Assembly (NCBI GenBank): GCA_021812505.1
Contig: JAKANG010000042.1
Coordinates: 1 to 7,978, forward strand
Direction of reading: 5' to 3'
Length of the DNA: 7,978 nucleotides
DNA from: Pseudomonadota bacterium
GTDB taxonomy: Bacteria > Pseudomonadota > Alphaproteobacteria > Rhizobiales > Beijerinckiaceae
The translations under genes were made by a program, and so were the position numbers. Under the pieces are notes generated by a model that was given only the letters and a program-made list of their open reading frames with translations, did not search any database and was not told the origin of the DNA. This document shows positions 567 through 7,978 of the stretch, one piece after another. The stretch's first letter is position 1; the number at the start of each line of letters is the position of its first letter.

Positions 567-1787
567 TCAGGCGTCGATGTTTTTGAAGATCAGCGTGGCG
601 TTGGTGCCCCCGAAACCGAAGGAATTGGACAAGACCGCGCCGAGCTGTTGATTGTCCCTGCGCTGACGCAGGATGTTCATGTCCGCGAAGGCGGGGTCGA
701 GATTGACGATGTTGGCGCTCTCGCAGATGAAGTCGTTCTGCTGCATGAGCAGGCAGTAAATCGCCTCCTGCACCCCCGCCGCGCCGAGCGAATGGCCGGT
801 CAGCGACTTGGTGGCCGAAATCGGCGGGCATTTGTCGGCGCCGAAGACTTTGCGGATCGCCTCGATTTCCTTGAGGTCGCCGACCGGGGTCGAGGTCGCG
901 TGCGGATTGATGTAGTCGATCGGAACCTTGCAGGTCTCGAGCGCCATGCGCATGCAGCGCTCGGCGCCTTCGCCCGAGGGCGCGACCATGTCATGGCCGT
1001 CGGAGGTCAGGCCATAGCCGGCGAGTTCGGCATAGATCTTCGCGCCGCGCGCCTTGGCCCGCTCATATTCCTCCAGCACAACGACGCCGGCGCCGCCGGC
1101 GATGACGAAGCCGTCGCGATCAACGTCATAGGCGCGCGAGGCGGTGGCGGGCGTGTCGTTATAGGAGGACGACATCGCGCCCATGGCGTCGAACAGCACG
1201 GAGAGCGTCCAGTCCAATTCCTCGCAGCCGCCGGCGAACATGACGTCCTGCTTGCCGTACTGGATCATTTCGGCGGCGTTGCCGATGCAATGCGCCGAGG
1301 TGGAGCAGGCCGAGGAGATCGAATAATTGACGCCCTTGATCTTGAACCAGGTGGCGAGCGTCGCCGAGGCCGTCGAGGACATGGCCTTGGGCACGGCGAA
1401 GGGGCCGACGCGCTTGGGGCCCTTGGTGCGGGTCGTGTCGGCGGATTCGACGATGGTGCGCGTCGAGGGGCCGCCGGAGCCCATGATGATCCCGGTGCGC
1501 GGATTGGAGACGTCGCCCGCCTCGAGGCCGGAATCGGCGATGGCCTGATCCATGGCGACATGGTTCCAGGCCGTGCCCATGGCGTGAAAGCGCATGGCGC
1601 GGCGATCGACGATCTTCTCGGGATCGAGCGTCGGGGCGCCATGGACCTGGCAGCGGAAGCCGAGTTCGGCATATTTGTCGGCGCGCACGATGCCCGACCG
1701 CGCGGCGCGCAGCGAGGCCGTGACCTCTTCGGCGTTGTTGCCGATCGAGGAGACAATGCCGATGCCGGTGACGACGACGCGTCTCAT
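567..1787 (-). CDS. fabB: Beta-ketoacyl-ACP synthase I FabB
   Basis: Condenses malonyl-ACP with acyl-ACP and is the elongating enzyme that accepts the cis-3-decenoyl-ACP made by FabA, so it is needed for unsaturated fatty acids. The 406-residue product has the usual length for the family. The thiolase-fold active site is complete: nucleophile Cys161 in [12 protein letters not shown], His296 in [11 protein letters not shown], Lys327 in ATKSLTGHS and His332 in the same segment, with the glycine-rich [10 protein letters not shown] near the C-terminus (388-397). The first active-site histidine is followed by Ala where E. coli FabB has Gly (HAT for HGT), a mild variation. The start is well supported: an AAGGAG ribosome site sits 7 bases before the ATG. 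It lies about 95 bases after the TGA that ends the full fabA frame and 14 bases before fab[12 protein letters not shown] and the pairing with fabA favour FabB over FabF. Confidence 0.96.
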
Positions 1788-1815
1788 GATTTCTCTCCTT
1801 GTGGCCGGCGGCGCG

Positions 1816-1860
1816 CAGGATTTTGGAAAAAGGGAGGCCGATTTTCCGCCAGAAATCCTG
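1816..1860 (-). repeat. Nested inverted repeat in the fabA-fabB spacer
   Basis: CAGGATTT (1816-1823) is the exact reverse complement of AAATCCTG (1853-1860). Inside it, GGAAAA (1825-1830) pairs with TTTTCC (1842-1847) around an 11-base loop. The transcript could form a two-part stem of 8 and 6 base pairs with a small asymmetric internal loop. No clean U-tract follows the stem in the direction of transcription, so it is not a typical intrinsic terminator. A role in mRNA processing, stability or attenuation between fabA and fabB is inference. Confidence 0.5.
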
Positions 1861-1882
1861 CAATACCAGAAATATGCGGCGC

Positions 1883-1924
1883 TCAGGCGCCAGCGGGCTG
1901 GAACAGGCCGACGCGCATGTCCTA
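1883..1924 (-). other. In-frame continuation of fabA past an amber codon
   Basis: The fabA frame reaches TAG at 1924-1922, then continues without interruption for 12 sense codons reading [12 protein letters not shown] and ends at TGA (1885-1883). E. coli FabA ends with a DLKVGLFQ segment at the same place after its IYTAS, so the residues past the stop are the family's conserved C-terminus, not random sequence. Read through, the protein would have 174 positions, close to the E. coli length of 172. The amber sits where E. coli has Ser and where, as I recall, relatives often have Lys. A single change from AAG or CAG would create it. Confidence 0.85.
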
Positions 1925-2407
1925 GACGTCATAGATGCGCTTGCCGTCGGCCTCGAGCCAGCCGTCGGCGATGCCGAGCTTGAGCTTGCCCCTCATCACG
2001 CGCCGGAAATCGACGCCATAGACGACCTTTTTCACCGTCGGCAACACCTGGTCGGCGAATTTGACCTCGCCGACGCCAAGCGCCCGGCCGCGTCCGGGCA
2101 GGCCGAGCCAGCCGAGGAAGAAGCCGGTGAGTTGCCAGAGGGCGTCGAGGCCGAGGCAGCCGGGCATGACGGGATCGCCCTGGAAATGGCAGCCGAAGAA
2201 CCAGAGGTCGGGCTTGATGTCGAATTCGGCGCGGACATGGCCCTTGCCATGGGCGCCGCCCTCCTCGGTGATTTCCACAATGCGGTCGAACATTAGCATC
2301 GGCGGCAGGGGCAATTGGGCGTTGCCGGGGCCGAAAAGTTCGCCGCGGCCGCATGCCAGAAGGTCTTCATAAGCGAAACTGGAGCGTCTCTCGCCCATCT
2401 GGGACAT
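1922..2407 (-). CDS. fabA: 3-hydroxydecanoyl-ACP dehydratase/isomerase FabA, ending at an early amber codon
   Basis: FabA dehydrates 3-hydroxydecanoyl-ACP and isomerises trans-2- to cis-3-decenoyl-ACP, the committing step of anaerobic unsaturated fatty acid synthesis; it acts in the cytoplasm with FabB. The 161 residues carry the single hot-dog domain with catalytic His74 ([14 protein letters not shown]) and Asp88 (CLGLDALWQ), matching E. coli His70 and Asp84. [19 protein letters not shown] and QVLPTVKKV are close to the E. coli enzyme. The frame stops about 12 residues short at TAG, although the missing C-terminal motif is encoded directly downstream in frame. Activity of the short form is uncertain. 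The ribosome site AGGGG (2414-2410) is only 2 bases from the first ATG but 11 from the ATG of codon 4 (2398), so either could be the true start. It is the first gene of fabA-fabB-fabI and divergent from irr. Confidence 0.93.
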
Positions 2408-2409
2408 TT

Positions 2410-2434
2410 CCCCTGTTCGGCCCTTCGAGGGGCC
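2410..2434 (-). promoter_or_regulatory. fabA leader with possible ribosome-site occlusion
   Basis: In the fabA mRNA, GGCCC (2434-2430) can pair with GGGCC (2423-2419) across a 6-base loop, just upstream of the AGGGG ribosome site (2414-2410). Alternatively CCCCU (2432-2428) can pair with that AGGGG itself. The two foldings share bases and exclude each other. Both stems are only 5 base pairs, so a regulatory role is speculative. Confidence 0.25.
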
Positions 2435-2602
2435 CCTGTTGCAATGACGCGTTCAAAATGCGTCGCGTTTGATAACCGCGCCTTCTAACATAGCCCTCGC
2501 CGGGCCGGAAGCCGCCCCAAAAGACTCATTCGCTTTTGCCGTCCAGCGTGGCATTCTTGCGTCGTTGCGACCCCTCGCCGGAGAGGCGCAAGGCGGTCGA
2601 TA

Positions 2603-2631
2603 TTGCCGGCCCAAGCGCGAAAGTCTATATC
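2603..2631 (+). promoter_or_regulatory. Candidate sigma-70 type promoter of irr
   Basis: TTGCCG (2603-2608) and TATATC (2626-2631) are separated by exactly 17 bases and each matches 4 of 6 consensus positions (TTGACA, TATAAT). The expected transcription start is near 2638, giving an irr leader of roughly 90-110 bases. It is the best-spaced pair I found in the divergent region, but GC-rich alphaproteobacterial promoters are often weak matches. Confidence 0.4.
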
Positions 2632-2633
2632 TC

Positions 2634-2646
2634 GGTCGTCACGACC
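2634..2646. promoter_or_regulatory. Perfect 13-bp palindrome, candidate operator at the irr start site
   Basis: GGTCGT and ACGACC are exact reverse complements around a single central C. The palindrome starts three bases after the predicted -10 hexamer, so it would cover the transcription start and is well placed for a repressor. It does not resemble an AT-rich Fur or Irr box, so the binding protein is unknown. Confidence 0.4.
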
Positions 2647-2708
2647 CGATGCGGGGGAGAGCGCTTTTTCTGATCCGCCGGTTGCGATCAAGCCGTTGTG
2701 CTGAGGCC

Positions 2709-2748
2709 GGAGAGGCGTCTTCATATGGAAAAGAGGGAAATTCATATG
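2709..2748 (+). promoter_or_regulatory. Two ribosome site/ATG pairs at the start of irr
   Basis: AGAGG (2711-2715) lies 9 bases before the ATG at 2725. AAGAGGG (2731-2737) lies 8 bases before the in-frame ATG at 2746. Both are usable, the second slightly better. The second pair arises from a tandem duplication (2720-2761). The choice decides between a 181- and a 174-residue Irr. Confidence 0.55.
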
Positions 2749-2761
2749 GAGAAGAGGGGAA
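2720..2761 (+). repeat. 21-bp imperfect tandem duplication at the irr start
   Basis: Unit 1 (2720-2740) and unit 2 (2741-2761) agree at 19 of 21 positions. Each begins TTCATATGGA and contains an AAGAGGG run. The unit length is a multiple of three, so the frame is kept and the protein begins with two MEKR copies seven residues apart. Confidence 0.9.
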
Positions 2762-3270
2762 GCGTTTCCCGGTCGCGCCGGACGTCGGAACGCGCGACCA
2801 AAAGCCGCAACACGGTCTTCGCGCCGACTCCTTCGGGATCGGATCTCAGCGGTTGCCCGTTGCACGACCTGCGGCACAAATTGAGCGAGGCCGGCCTGCG
2901 ACCGACGCGGCAGCGCCTGCGGCTCGGATGGCTCCTGTTCGGCGGCGGCGACCGCCATGTCACGGCCGAACGGCTTTATGAGGAAGCCCTCGCCGCGCGC
3001 GCGCCGATCTCTCTCGCGACCGTCTACAACACCCTGAACCAGTTCACTTTGGCGGGCCTCCTGAAAGAGGTCACGGTCGATGGCGCCAAGACCTATTTCG
3101 ACACCAATCTTGCCGACCACCAGCATTTCGTCAGCGACGACGAGACGCACATGCTGACCGACTTGCCCAAGGAGCTGATCGACTTCAGCCGCCTGCCCGA
3201 GCCGCCCGAGGGCATGGAGATCGCGCGGGTCGACGTGGTGATCCGCCTGCGCCGCAAGAAGGCGTCCTGA
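2725..3270 (+). CDS. irr: Iron response regulator Irr (Fur family), haem-responsive
   Basis: Irr is the main iron regulator of many Rhizobiales. When haem is scarce it binds DNA to repress haem synthesis and iron-use genes and to activate uptake; haem delivered by ferrochelatase inactivates or destabilises it. This 181-residue form (from the ATG at 2725) has a basic N-terminal tail (1-35), then a haem-regulatory Cys-Pro in SGCPLHD (Cys44-Pro45). The winged helix follows, with GLRPTRQR, GWLLFGGGDRHVTAE (His78) and recognition segment ISLATVYNTLNQF. The dimerisation region has GAKTYFDTN and His132-Gln-His134, where B. japonicum Irr has three consecutive histidines, and ends EIARVDVVIRLRRKK. It lacks the CxxC zinc pairs of classical Fur, which supports Irr over Fur, Zur or PerR. 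The start could also be 2746 (174 residues); the upstream in-frame GTG at 2698 has no ribosome site. It is divergent from fabA. Confidence 0.93.
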   Translation: MEKREIHMEKRGSVSRSRRTSERATKSRNTVFAPTPSGSDLSGCPLHDLRHKLSEAGLRPTRQRLRLGWLLFGGGDRHVTAERLYEEALAARAPISLATVYNTLNQFTLAGLLKEVTVDGAKTYFDTNLADHQHFVSDDETHMLTDLPKELIDFSRLPEPPEGMEIARVDVVIRLRRKKAS

Positions 3271-3274
3271 GGCG

Positions 3275-3305
3275 AAAAATCCGCCCGCCGGGGGCGGCGG
3301 GCGGA
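3275..3305 (-). terminator. Intrinsic terminator of the DUF2076-type gene
   Basis: TCCGCCCGCC (3280-3289) and GGCGGGCGGA (3296-3305) form a perfect 10-bp GC-rich stem with a 6-base loop. In the leftward transcript the stem is followed directly by a U-run, read from the A-run at 3275-3279. The rightward irr transcript would form the same stem but has no U-tract after it, so termination there may be weaker. It lies between the two convergent stop codons. Confidence 0.8.
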
Positions 3306-3329
3306 CCGAAGCGTCGTTTGCGGGAGGCT

Positions 3330-4052
3330 TCAGACGTCGGAGCTGAAGTCGTCGCCGCCGGAAAAATCATCATCCTGGTAATCGGCGTCGGAATAGCCCA
3401 TGCCATTGTCGCTCGAGGCGTCGGGCAGCGACCGGTCGCCGCCGGACTGGGGCGAATCATAGAAATTGTTCACGACCGTCTCGCCGCCGCCGAGACCCGT
3501 TCCGCCGCCGAACAGGCCGGCGTTATGGCCGCCGCCGAACATGCCGCGAAGCGAATCAGCGAGCAGCACGCCGCCGGCGACGCCCGCCGCGGCGCCAAGC
3601 GCGTTGCGCAGGAAGCCGCCGCCCTGGGGCTGTTGCGGCGCGCCCCAAGGCGAGGGCGCCGCGGAGGGAGCGGGCGGGGGCGCATAGGACGGCTGGGGCG
3701 CAGAGGCCTGCTGTTGGGGCGGCGCGCCCCACGGGCCGGGCTGGGGCGCGGGCCGCGCCGCGCCGCCGCCGAACAGGCCGCCGAGGAAGCTCCCGCCGCC
3801 CTGGGGCGCGGCGGACTGGGCCTGCGCGTGAAGCTGGTCGAGTTCGGCCTGCAGGGCCTGGATCTTCTGATCCGCCCCCCGCAGCGCCTGTTCCTGAACG
3901 ATCACCGCCTGGGCCAGGAGATAGGGGGCATAGGGCTGCGCGCGCACGGCCTCGGCGATGAAGGCCTCGGCCTCGGCGTCGCGTGGTCCGGCCGCCTGGC
4001 TGCGGACGCGGTCGAACAGTTCGGTGAGCAACTGGCGTTCCTGGGGCGACAT
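3330..4052 (-). CDS. DUF2076-type protein of unknown function
   Basis: The 240-residue product resembles the DUF2076 family of proteobacterial proteins, whose function I do not know. The N-terminus MSPQERQLLTELFDRV is the typical family opening and is followed by a helical part (20-80) with PRDAEAEAFI and a likely short coiled coil (VIVQEQAL to LDQLHAQ). After that come low-complexity Gly/Pro/Gln-rich stretches (85-145) containing two PWGAP copies, a small-residue hydrophobic helix (GFLRNALGAAAGVAGGVLLADSL, about 146-168) that could be membrane-active, and an acidic Asp/Ser/Gly tail (216-240). No signal peptide is apparent. The ATG at 4052 is chosen because an AGAGGAG ribosome site sits about 7 bases upstream and the protein then starts at the conserved MSPQ; an ATG 21 bases further upstream would add 7 residues. 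It has its own terminator and is divergent from the transpeptidase gene. Confidence 0.8.
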   Translation of the reverse strand: MSPQERQLLTELFDRVRSQAAGPRDAEAEAFIAEAVRAQPYAPYLLAQAVIVQEQALRGADQKIQALQAELDQLHAQAQSAAPQGGGSFLGGLFGGGAARPAPQPGPWGAPPQQQASAPQPSYAPPPAPSAAPSPWGAPQQPQGGGFLRNALGAAAGVAGGVLLADSLRGMFGGGHNAGLFGGGTGLGGGETVVNNFYDSPQSGGDRSLPDASSDNGMGYSDADYQDDDFSGGDDFSSDV

Positions 4053-4155
4053 CGCGCGACTCCTCTGGCGCATTTCCGGTTTTGCGGCCGGCGCGTCTGC
4101 GGACGGCCGGGCGCCCGGAATATGGGTGGCGCGGGCCGCCGAGGGAAGACTGTCG

Positions 4156-4177
4156 AAGATGAAATTTCCGTCATCTT
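4156..4177. promoter_or_regulatory. Palindrome between the divergent DUF2076 and transpeptidase genes
   Basis: AAGATGA (4156-4162) is the exact reverse complement of TCATCTT (4171-4177) across 8 bases; inside it GAAATTTC (4161-4168) is itself a palindrome. The centre is about 114 and 118 bases from the two divergent start codons. It is an AT-rich island in GC-rich sequence, as expected of a protein-binding site, but no regulator is identified. The rest of the spacer (4053-4284) shows no confident -35/-10 pair and no gene. Confidence 0.45.
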
Positions 4178-4284
4178 GGGCCGATCGTGAACGCGCCGCA
4201 AAAAGGACACAGAACGGGAGAATTTGCGCGCCAAGCCCCTAAAACCTTGGCAAAAGCGATCGTATCGTTCTTAAAGGGTAGACG

Positions 4285-5817
4285 ATGGCCACAGGAAATT
4301 CCGGCATGAGGCGCGCGACAAAGGCCCTGCTTCTTCTCTCGGCGGCGGCGCTCGCCGCCGCGCCTTTCGCGGCGCGCGCGCAAAATCCGCTTTCGCGCGA
4401 GCCGATGTCGACCCAGCCTTCGTCCGAGGCGCCGGCCGCTCCCAAACCCGCGGCGGCGCCCTCCACCCAGCCCGCTTCGCCCGGCGCCATCGAAGCCGCG
4501 CCGCTTGCGCCGCCAGCCGCCCAGACCCAGGCCCCACCGCCAGCTTCCGCGCCCGCCGCGCCGGCGTCTGCGCCAATGACGCCCGCCCCCGTTCCAGCCT
4601 CGCGCGCTCCGACGACGGTCCAGGCCGAGCCCGCAAAACCGAAGCCCAAGCCGAAGCCGCCGGCTCCGCCACGGGAAATGGCGCTCTCGGACGATCCGAC
4701 GCCGGTTCTGCAGCCGGAGACCTTCTTCACCACCGCCAAGGCGTCCGAGCGTTACGCGGCCATTGTCGACGCCGGGGGCTGGCCGGCCGTTCCCTCGGAA
4801 CTCAAGCCGGGCGCCAAGGGGCCCGCCGTCGCCATCCTGCGCCGGCGTCTCGCGGTCGAAGGCGACATTGTCGGCGCCGAGGCCAATGGGATGAACTGGA
4901 CGCCGGCCCTGACCGCCGCCGTCAAGCGCTTCCAGTTCCGCAACGGCCTCAAGCAGACGGGGATCGTCGCCGGCGCCACCCTGCGCGCGATGAACATTCC
5001 CGCCAATGTCCGTTTCAAGCAGCTCGCGTCCAGCGCGCAGAGGCTGGCGGGGCTGAACTTTCCCTTCGGCGACAAATATGTCGCGGTGAACATCCCCTCG
5101 ACCGCCGTGGACGCGGTGGAAAACGGCCGCGTCGCCCATCGCTACGCGGCCATCGTCGGCGGGCCGGAGCATCAATCGCCGCAGCTGACCGCGAAAATCG
5201 TCGCGATCAATCTCAACCCGACCTGGACGGTGCCGGTCTCGATCATCAAGAACGAGATCATCCCGAAGATGCGGACGCAGCCGAACTATCTGGCGCGCGC
5301 CCATATCCGCATCCTCAACGGGCGCGGCGAGGAGATCAACCCGAAGGCGATCGATTGGAATTCGGAACGGGCGACCAATTACATCCTTCGCCAGGATTCC
5401 GGCAAAGGCAATTCGCTCGGCCTGATCCGCATCCAGATGCCCAATCCCGACGCGGTCTACATGCATGACACGCCGACGCGGAATCTCTTCGCCAATGACT
5501 ATCGCTTCCTCTCGCACGGTTGCGTGCGCGTGCAGGGCGTCTATGACCTCGCGGCCTGGCTGCTGCAGGGCGTTCCCGTGACGCCGGCGCCGACATCCGA
5601 ACAGGCGTCGGCCGCGCTCGCGCCGGCGATCTCTTCGGACCTCGGCGTCTGGACCGCCGCGCTGATCCAGCAGCGCATCGCAAGCGGGGCGCGCGAGGAC
5701 GTCAAGCTGCCCAAGCCCGTGCCGGTGGTCTGGGTCTATCTGACCGGCTGGGCCTCCGCCGACGGCATGGTCCATTTCCGCGACGACGTCTACAACGTCG
5801 ATACGGTCGGGGGCTGA
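4285..5817 (+). CDS. Secreted L,D-transpeptidase, YcbB/LdtD-like (YkuD domain, PG-binding domain)
   Basis: Periplasmic enzyme expected to form 3-3 (mDAP-mDAP) cross-links in peptidoglycan with a cysteine nucleophile; this class is beta-lactam tolerant apart from carbapenems. The 510 residues begin with a signal peptide (basic MRR at 8-10, hydrophobic 14-28, likely cleavage after ARA at residue 32). A Pro/Ala-rich linker follows (about 35-130, ending in a KPK-rich run). The peptidoglycan-binding domain spans about 172-238 (LKPGAKGPAVAILRRRL, AVKRFQFRNGL, TLRAMNIP). The YkuD catalytic domain spans about 264-430, with His394 (YMHDTP) and SHGCVRV (410-416) carrying His411, Cys413 and Arg415. The C-terminal YLTGWASADGMVHFRDD is typical of the YcbB-type subgroup, as is the large domain. 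The start is supported by AGGG six bases before the ATG; the ATG at 4306 would leave a shorter signal peptide. Monocistronic, as both neighbours are on the other strand. Confidence 0.92.
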   Translation: MATGNSGMRRATKALLLLSAAALAAAPFAARAQNPLSREPMSTQPSSEAPAAPKPAAAPSTQPASPGAIEAAPLAPPAAQTQAPPPASAPAAPASAPMTPAPVPASRAPTTVQAEPAKPKPKPKPPAPPREMALSDDPTPVLQPETFFTTAKASERYAAIVDAGGWPAVPSELKPGAKGPAVAILRRRLAVEGDIVGAEANGMNWTPALTAAVKRFQFRNGLKQTGIVAGATLRAMNIPANVRFKQLASSAQRLAGLNFPFGDKYVAVNIPSTAVDAVENGRVAHRYAAIVGGPEHQSPQLTAKIVAINLNPTWTVPVSIIKNEIIPKMRTQPNYLARAHIRILNGRGEEINPKAIDWNSERATNYILRQDSGKGNSLGLIRIQMPNPDAVYMHDTPTRNLFANDYRFLSHGCVRVQGVYDLAAWLLQGVPVTPAPTSEQASAALAPAISSDLGVWTAALIQQRIASGAREDVKLPKPVPVVWVYLTGWASADGMVHFRDDVYNVDTVGG

Positions 5818-5843
5818 CGGCGAAGTCGGATAGCGCCGCTCTG

Positions 5844-5901
5844 GCTCACGCCAACCGCTCCTGAACTTTTGGATCGGTCGCTTTCGCTCACGCGAACCGC
5901 T
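5844..5901. repeat. Short direct repeat in the convergent intergenic spacer
   Basis: GCTCACGCCAACCGCT (5844-5859) recurs at 5886-5901 with one mismatch (15 of 16), 42 bases apart. The second copy overlaps a hairpin (CGGTCGC at 5875-5881 with GCG-A-ACCG at 5892-5899, one bulged A). It lies in the 99-base gap between two convergent genes, where dispersed repeats and weak terminators are common. No U-rich tract marks either strand as a clear intrinsic terminator. Confidence 0.55.
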
Positions 5902-5916
5902 TCCGCAGAACTGGCC

Positions 5917-7978
5917 TCATCCCGCCTCGGGATTCGGCCGCGCCTCGGCTTCAGTCGGCGGTTGGGTGAGATCGAGCACAACCTTCTTCACGCCATGTTC
6001 GGCGGGGTCGTCCTCGACGTGGAAGCCGAGCGCGCGGTTCATCGACAGCATCGGCTCGTTTTCGCTCAGCACCTGGCCCTCGACCATTTTCACGCCCTCG
6101 GCGCGGGCGAATTCGATCATATATTTCATGAGCTTCCAGCCGAGGCCCTGGCCCTTGAGGTCGGAGCGCAGCAGGATGGCGTATTCGCCAAGCTCGTGGT
6201 CGGCGTCGAGCATGAGGCGGACCACGCCGAGCATCAGCCCGGTGTTTTCGTCCACCGCGACGGAGACGAAGGAGCGGGCGTAATCGATCTGGATGAGGCG
6301 CGCGATGAAGGCGTGGGAGAATTCCTTGACCGGCGCGAAGAAGCGCAGGCGAATGTCTTCCGGCGACACATGGGCGAAGAAGACCTTGTACATTTCTTCG
6401 TCTTCCGGACGCACGGGGCGCAGCTGCACCGGCGTTCCGTTCTTGAGCGTCGTGCGCCGCTCCTGCGGCTTGGGATAGGGCGCGACGGCGAAGCGTGGAT
6501 TGACCCCCGAGAAGGCGCGTCCCTCGCAGGGCGCGACGGAAGCGCGGGCGTCGACCACCACGACGCCGTCGGCGTCGGCGAGCACCGGATTGAACTCGAG
6601 TTCACGGATCTCGGGAAGGTCGGCGGAAAGCTGCGACAGCTTGACCAGGAGCAGCGCCACCGCGTCGATGTCGGCGGCCGGAATGTCGCGATAGTCGCGC
6701 AGGGCGCGCACCACGCGGGTCCGCTCGATCAGGCCGCGCGCCAGCGACAGGTCGAGCGGCGGCAAAGCGAGGGCCTTGTCGTTGATGACCTCGACCGCCT
6801 TGCCGCCGCGCCCAAAAACGATGACCGGGCCGAAGGTCGGATCGTCGGTGACGCCCATCACCAGTTCGCGGGCGTTCGGGCGGCGCACCATCGGATGGAT
6901 GGTGACGCCGTCCACCCGCGCATGCGGCGCTTCGGACGCGACGCGATCCAGCATTTTTTGCGTGGCGTCGACGACCTGCTCGACCGTGCGCAGGTCGAGC
7001 GCCACGCCGCCGAGGTCGGATTTGTGGACGATGTCGCGCGACATGATCTTGACCACGCAGCCGCCGTAGCGCCCAAGCACCAGGCGGGCGACCTCCGCCG
7101 CCTCCTCTGGCGTGCGCGCCAGCCGCGCCGGGGCGATCGGGATGTCATAGGCTTCGAGCAGCGCGCTGATCTCGATCGGCGCCAGCCAGGAATTGCCGCG
7201 GGCGATCGCCTGCTGGACGACGGCGCGCGCCTTGGCGACATTGGGCGCGAAATCGACCGGCATCGAGGGCGGGGCCGCCATCAGGGCTTCGCGGGCCTGC
7301 CGCCATTTGACCATGTGCATGAAGCCGGCGACCGCGCCGCGCTCGTAATGGGGAATGCGCGCTTCCTCGAAAATGCGGTCGATCGCGTCGCCCGCCCCAT
7401 ACCAGACCGCGAAGACTGGCTTGGCGTTGATCGAGGCGCGACGATGCTTCTTCACGGCCTCGACCGTGGACTTGGCGATCTCCCCCGCGTCGGAGAGAAC
7501 GTTGGGCGCATGGAGGACGAGCACCGCGTCATTGGCCTTGTCCTGGAGCACCACGGACAGCGCCTGGCCGTAATCGTCGGCGCTGGCGTCGGCGGCGAGT
7601 TCGACGGGCGGCGCGCCGCTCCAGCTTTCCGGCAACAGGGGCCTGAGCGCGTCCCGGGTCGCTGGCGATATTTCGGCGAGCCTGCCGCCGGCGTCGAGCA
7701 GCTGGTCGATCGCCAGATAGCCGACGCCGCGGCCATTGGTGACGATGGCGAGGCGCTCGCCGTTGAATGGCTTGATGCGGCCGAGCGCCTCGGCCGCGTC
7801 GAACAGGGCGTCGATGGTCGGCACGCGCAGGAGGCCCGCGCGCCGGAAGGCGGCGTCATAGACGTCGTCGGTGGTCGCGAGATTGCCGGCGTGGGTGCCG
7901 GTGCGGCGCGACGCTTCGTGACGGCCGGAGCGCACGACGATCACCGGCTTCACGCGCGAGGCGGCGCTGGCCGCCGAC
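5917..7978 (-). CDS. NDP-forming acyl-CoA synthetase/GNAT fusion, Pat/PatZ-type protein acetyltransferase, N-terminus beyond window
   Basis: Enterobacterial Pat/PatZ (YfiQ) has this architecture and acetylates lysines, for example on acetyl-CoA synthetase, from acetyl-CoA; that role is inferred here. The reading frame is open to the window edge, so the GTG at 7953 is internal and the CoA-binding N-terminus is missing. In the 686 visible residues, a SucD-like ligase segment comes first (KPVIVVRSGRH to about 240, including YDAAFRRAGLLRV and FMHMVKWR). An ATP-grasp domain follows (about 263-480: VVKIMSRDIVHKSDLGGV, DPTFGPVIVFGRGGKAVEV, ELEFNPVLAD). The GNAT domain is C-terminal (about 518-660: LRPVRPEDEEM, Glu598 in GEYAILLRSDLKGQGLG, NRALGF). 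A histidine in TGTHAG (residue 29) sits where succinyl-CoA synthetase alpha has its phosphohistidine. The gene ends at TGA, convergent with the transpeptidase gene. A catalytically active acyl-CoA synthetase is the alternative. Confidence 0.9.
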   Translation of the reverse strand, partial: SAASAASRVKPVIVVRSGRHEASRRTGTHAGNLATTDDVYDAAFRRAGLLRVPTIDALFDAAEALGRIKPFNGERLAIVTNGRGVGYLAIDQLLDAGGRLAEISPATRDALRPLLPESWSGAPPVELAADASADDYGQALSVVLQDKANDAVLVLHAPNVLSDAGEIAKSTVEAVKKHRRASINAKPVFAVWYGAGDAIDRIFEEARIPHYERGAVAGFMHMVKWRQAREALMAAPPSMPVDFAPNVAKARAVVQQAIARGNSWLAPIEISALLEAYDIPIAPARLARTPEEAAEVARLVLGRYGGCVVKIMSRDIVHKSDLGGVALDLRTVEQVVDATQKMLDRVASEAPHARVDGVTIHPMVRRPNARELVMGVTDDPTFGPVIVFGRGGKAVEVINDKALALPPLDLSLARGLIERTRVVRALRDYRDIPAADIDAVALLLVKLSQLSADLPEIRELEFNPVLADADGVVVVDARASVAPCEGRAFSGVNPRFAVAPYPKPQERRTTLKNGTPVQLRPVRPEDEEMYKVFFAHVSPEDIRLRFFAPVKEFSHAFIARLIQIDYARSFVSVAVDENTGLMLGVVRLMLDADHELGEYAILLRSDLKGQGLGWKLMKYMIEFARAEGVKMVEGQVLSENEPMLSMNRALGFHVEDDPAEHGVKKVVLDLTQPPTEAEARPNPEAG

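Follow-up and report, generated by a model that had tools for sequence, protein, structure and literature searches.

FabA is the 3-hydroxydecanoyl-ACP dehydratase/isomerase described by the family models TIGR01749 and PRK05174. The catalytic residues named for the E. coli enzyme are His70 and Asp84, the equivalents of His74 and Asp88 in the protein considered here (PMC2698920), and P. aeruginosa without fabA is described as requiring the desaturase DesA for growth when no unsaturated fatty acids are added (PMC10634369). The relatives that we examined have a conserved C-terminal tail, whereas the FabA encoded in the window (the whole 7,978-nucleotide stretch analysed here) lacks its last 13 residues as read. 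Nonsense errors and private nonsense alleles form a general kind in draft or metagenome assemblies, and this locus resembles them in its one-base change, the sense codon of its sisters, the undamaged frame downstream and a chimera-like junction on the same contig. On balance, we favor the view that the stop is a sequencing, consensus or assembly error that does not exist in the organism itself. Judging by titles and abstract openings, the literature that we searched holds nothing on a truncated FabA with a premature stop.

The fabA reading frame and its tail

The fabA gene lies on the minus strand and, with the frame read from the sequence, runs from an ATG at 2405–2407 down to position 1922. 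It comprises 161 codons and a TAG (codon 162, 1922–1924), where the nearest genome, G001, carries a sense codon one base different. Past the TAG the same frame continues for 12 codons (1886–1921) that encode the conserved C-terminal tail, free of further damage, before reaching a TGA at 1883–1885, the stop used by fabA in G001. This is the arrangement that the earlier note had described, and alignment with 1mka bears out its statement that E. coli FabA has DLKVGLFQ at this place. The open reading frame and TIGR01749 mark the product as a 3-hydroxyacyl-ACP dehydratase/isomerase, with a score of 279.8 bits as read and 296.6 bits when read through, both above the family cut-off of 238.15 bits.

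The fabA genes of the window and G001 are 99.6% identical, differing at 2 of 525 bases, one of them silent and the other the base that creates the TAG. A lysine codon occupies the site in all 11 genus genomes (G001 and the 10 others searched), as would be expected of an error or a strain-specific change. More widely, the codon is a sense codon in 91/91 loci (G001, 80 from genome contigs and 10 from genus genomes, some possibly of the same species), with tails of 10–22 residues following residue 161; the shortest tail among the relatives read is thus 10 residues long. Beyond the stop the window shows no decay, its tail matching that of G001 exactly, and all 11 genus genomes share the first nine residues of this tail, DMRVGLFQP. 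On these two agreements, the tail is not a chance match.

The same picture holds at greater distance. All of the 120 FabA proteins listed, from 8000 scored, extend 10 residues or more beyond position 161, and lysine occupies position 162 in 72 of them. An order-wide search gave a fabA match in 294 of 297 genomes, with weak matches only in G196 and G257, and among the matches listed every one reaches query residue 169 or further. A stop falls inside the match in 11 of those listed: in ten it is the gene's own end after 10–11 tail residues, and in the eleventh (G089) it is a TAA just ahead of the start codon, the tail there running 13 residues to a TGA. Homologues ending naturally at IYDV, for which the earlier note had allowed, are absent from the 91 loci, from the 120 listed proteins (none of which ends at the TAG site) and from the 11 listed order-wide matches with an internal stop. 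A short FabA as the natural, normal form is therefore rejected, the tail being kept in all relatives read. Among these relatives, the comparison makes the TAG private to the window's contig.

G001 has a single fabA match, with no second, compensating copy. Short fabA-like fragments, covering query residues 2–34 with one TGA inside, occur at separate places in G006 and G003 (L101, L102), and none was seen in G001.

The missing piece corresponds to 8 of the 14 residues of the last beta strand predicted in a structural model. Two of the tail residues, V166 and L168, are invariant in an alignment of 39 sequences, made up of a selection from the 120 listed proteins together with the window's own. 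The catalytic pair, H74 and D88, is present in the window's protein and likewise invariant in the 39 sequences. Fold predictions hardly reveal a loss of stability.

A contig that follows two genomes

The first 915 bases of the window follow another species, G008, with which they agree at 914 of 915 positions, against about 87% identity to G001. At 120 informative sites between 10 and 915 the window shares its base with G008 alone, and at 67 further along (1002 to 1805) with G001 alone; position 259 is the single exception. The switch point lies between the two sets of sites, in 86 bases (916–1001) that are identical in the window, G001 and G008, and it falls within fabB. On its far side the window is about 100% identical to G001, compared with 99.9% to G008 before it, while G001 and G008 themselves differ by approximately 10–13% in this region. 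This site-by-site agreement shows a mosaic contig, with sequence from two species.

Short-read metagenome assembly can cross between two species in a shared stretch, and an abrupt switch between two genomes within a stretch identical to both, as expected of a chimeric contig, is what we find here. The mosaic probably reflects a chimera, formed when the assembly crossed between two related species, although natural recombination between them would give the same picture. Our literature search found no paper connecting premature stop codons with chimeric contigs from metagenome assembly. The TAG sits some 0.9 kb beyond the switch, on the G001-like side. A mosaic contig lowers the trust that can be placed in single bases, and makes an assembly origin of the TAG more likely.

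Outside the mosaic tract and an intergenic hotspot the window matches G001 at about 99.8% identity, with 16 differences (approximately 0.23%), of which 5 fall in 916–3325 and 11 in 3326–7978; the hotspot, a cluster at 5861–5907, is left out of these counts. We compared 15 coding differences from G001 outside the mosaic tract across the genus genomes, not all of which aligned at each site. The window's codon was found in no other aligned genus genome at 6 of the 15, four of these private codons being protein-changing relative to G001 (the TAG included) and two silent. At one of the protein-changing sites, 7108, three other genomes encode the window's residue through a different codon. G001 is in turn alone in its codon at 3 of the 15 (3048, 3691 and 5938), with the protein altered at two of these, and the window is thus not unusual in having private changes. 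These small numbers suggest, at most, a slight lean toward the window carrying errors or mutations of very recent origin.

The hotspot itself separates the transpeptidase gene from the CoA-ligase/GNAT gene and holds 15 clustered differences from G001, two of which are indels. In this region G001 carries two exact 21-base copies, a repeat that was not found in the window.

Origin of the amber codon

The earlier note had left three options for the TAG: an error, a recent nonsense mutation or amber readthrough. Our comparisons strengthen an error or a strain-specific change, through the lysine found in 11/11 genus genomes, and weaken readthrough. Since the TAG is unshared by the relatives examined and the contig is a two-species mosaic, the codon most likely reflects a sequencing or assembly error or a mutation confined to this contig rather than a new mechanism. 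In the model that we favor, a one-base sequencing or consensus error would have arisen in an otherwise intact fabA, on a contig in whose assembly two related species were probably joined. That the base is wrong is something we infer from the comparison of sequences.

The strongest competitor is a real, recent nonsense mutation private to the strain, which would shorten FabA to 161 residues and cost it the second half of the last beta strand. Such an enzyme would have reduced activity or none, and the allele would be tolerated through another route to unsaturated fatty acids, slight natural readthrough or residual activity. The approximately 0.23% difference between the window and G001 indicates that real strain-level polymorphism is present around the TAG, which leaves room for a true nonsense allele, and the catalytic His74 and Asp88 are retained. 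G001 also has two matches above cut-off to the FA_desaturase family (PF00487), making an oxygen-dependent route possible; taken together with the compensation by DesA in P. aeruginosa, these matches would make a null or weak fabA allele conceivable. Against this, no relative read ends FabA at this point, the lost part takes with it 8 of the 14 last-strand residues and two invariant residues, and 3 of the 11 genus genomes are without a PF00487 match (8 have one). PF00487 also includes enzymes other than acyl desaturases. Weighing these points, we regard a real private nonsense mutation as possible but less probable than an error. A more specific version, in which a living strain carries a real amber before the last half-strand of FabA and obtains enough working enzyme through natural readthrough or a shift to desaturases, strikes us as improbable.

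Readthrough as such, whether programmed or brought about by a suppressor tRNA, would yield full-length FabA and accords with a frame that is open and intact to the TGA 12 codons further on. However, TAG stands at this site in none of the 91 loci, including none of the 11 genus genomes, and 7 of 91 related fabA genes end in TAG. No CTA anticodon occurs among the 36 tRNA matches in G001, a set that is incomplete (the assembly is 93% complete, and the set lacks any tRNA named as Tyr, Gln or Ile) and that belongs to a genome other than the window's own. Release factor RF1 (TIGR00019) is above cut-off in all three genus genomes searched for it (G001, G005 and G008). Within the window, fabB, irr, the DUF2076-type gene, the transpeptidase gene and the synthetase/GNAT gene all end in TGA, as the earlier note had stated, and no other gene examined was seen to be interrupted. 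A stop-codon count in the long open reading frames of relatives was mechanical, may pick up antisense frames and was left out of the evidence. With the TAG not conserved, no suppressor tRNA seen in the incomplete G001 set and RF1 present in the genomes searched, we rejected amber readthrough as very unlikely.

There is next to no likelihood that the tail has become dispensable in this lineage and the TAG a new, functional end: the short form still exceeds the NCBIfam fabA cut-off (279.8 against 238.15), but every relative read has the tail, including the sister that is 99.6% identical over the gene.

Were the TAG a true allele, it would serve as a natural experiment on the amount of C-terminus that FabA needs. 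For the reading that we prefer, an error, the locus is chiefly a warning: before a single in-frame stop in a conserved gene is taken for recoding or loss of function, sister genomes should be compared and the contig examined for signs of chimerism.

Neighboring genes

In the window fabA lies upstream of fabB and of a fabI-like gene, and diverges from irr. The fabB gene, which contains the mosaic switch, encodes beta-ketoacyl-ACP synthase I (567–1787, minus strand; NF005935, 747.4 bits). The fabI-like gene is cut by the end of the window, and its best match (NF005078, 346.9 bits) is below the whole-protein cut-off of 446. The protein that the earlier note had labelled DUF2076-type has no match among the NCBIfam profiles. 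In the CoA-ligase/GNAT gene of G010 (L149), one inner TAA falls within the match. A long mechanical open reading frame of 425 amino acids (648–1925, plus strand) runs antisense to fabB, its end overlapping the TAG bases of fabA, and is probably a side effect of the high G+C content of the coding sequence.
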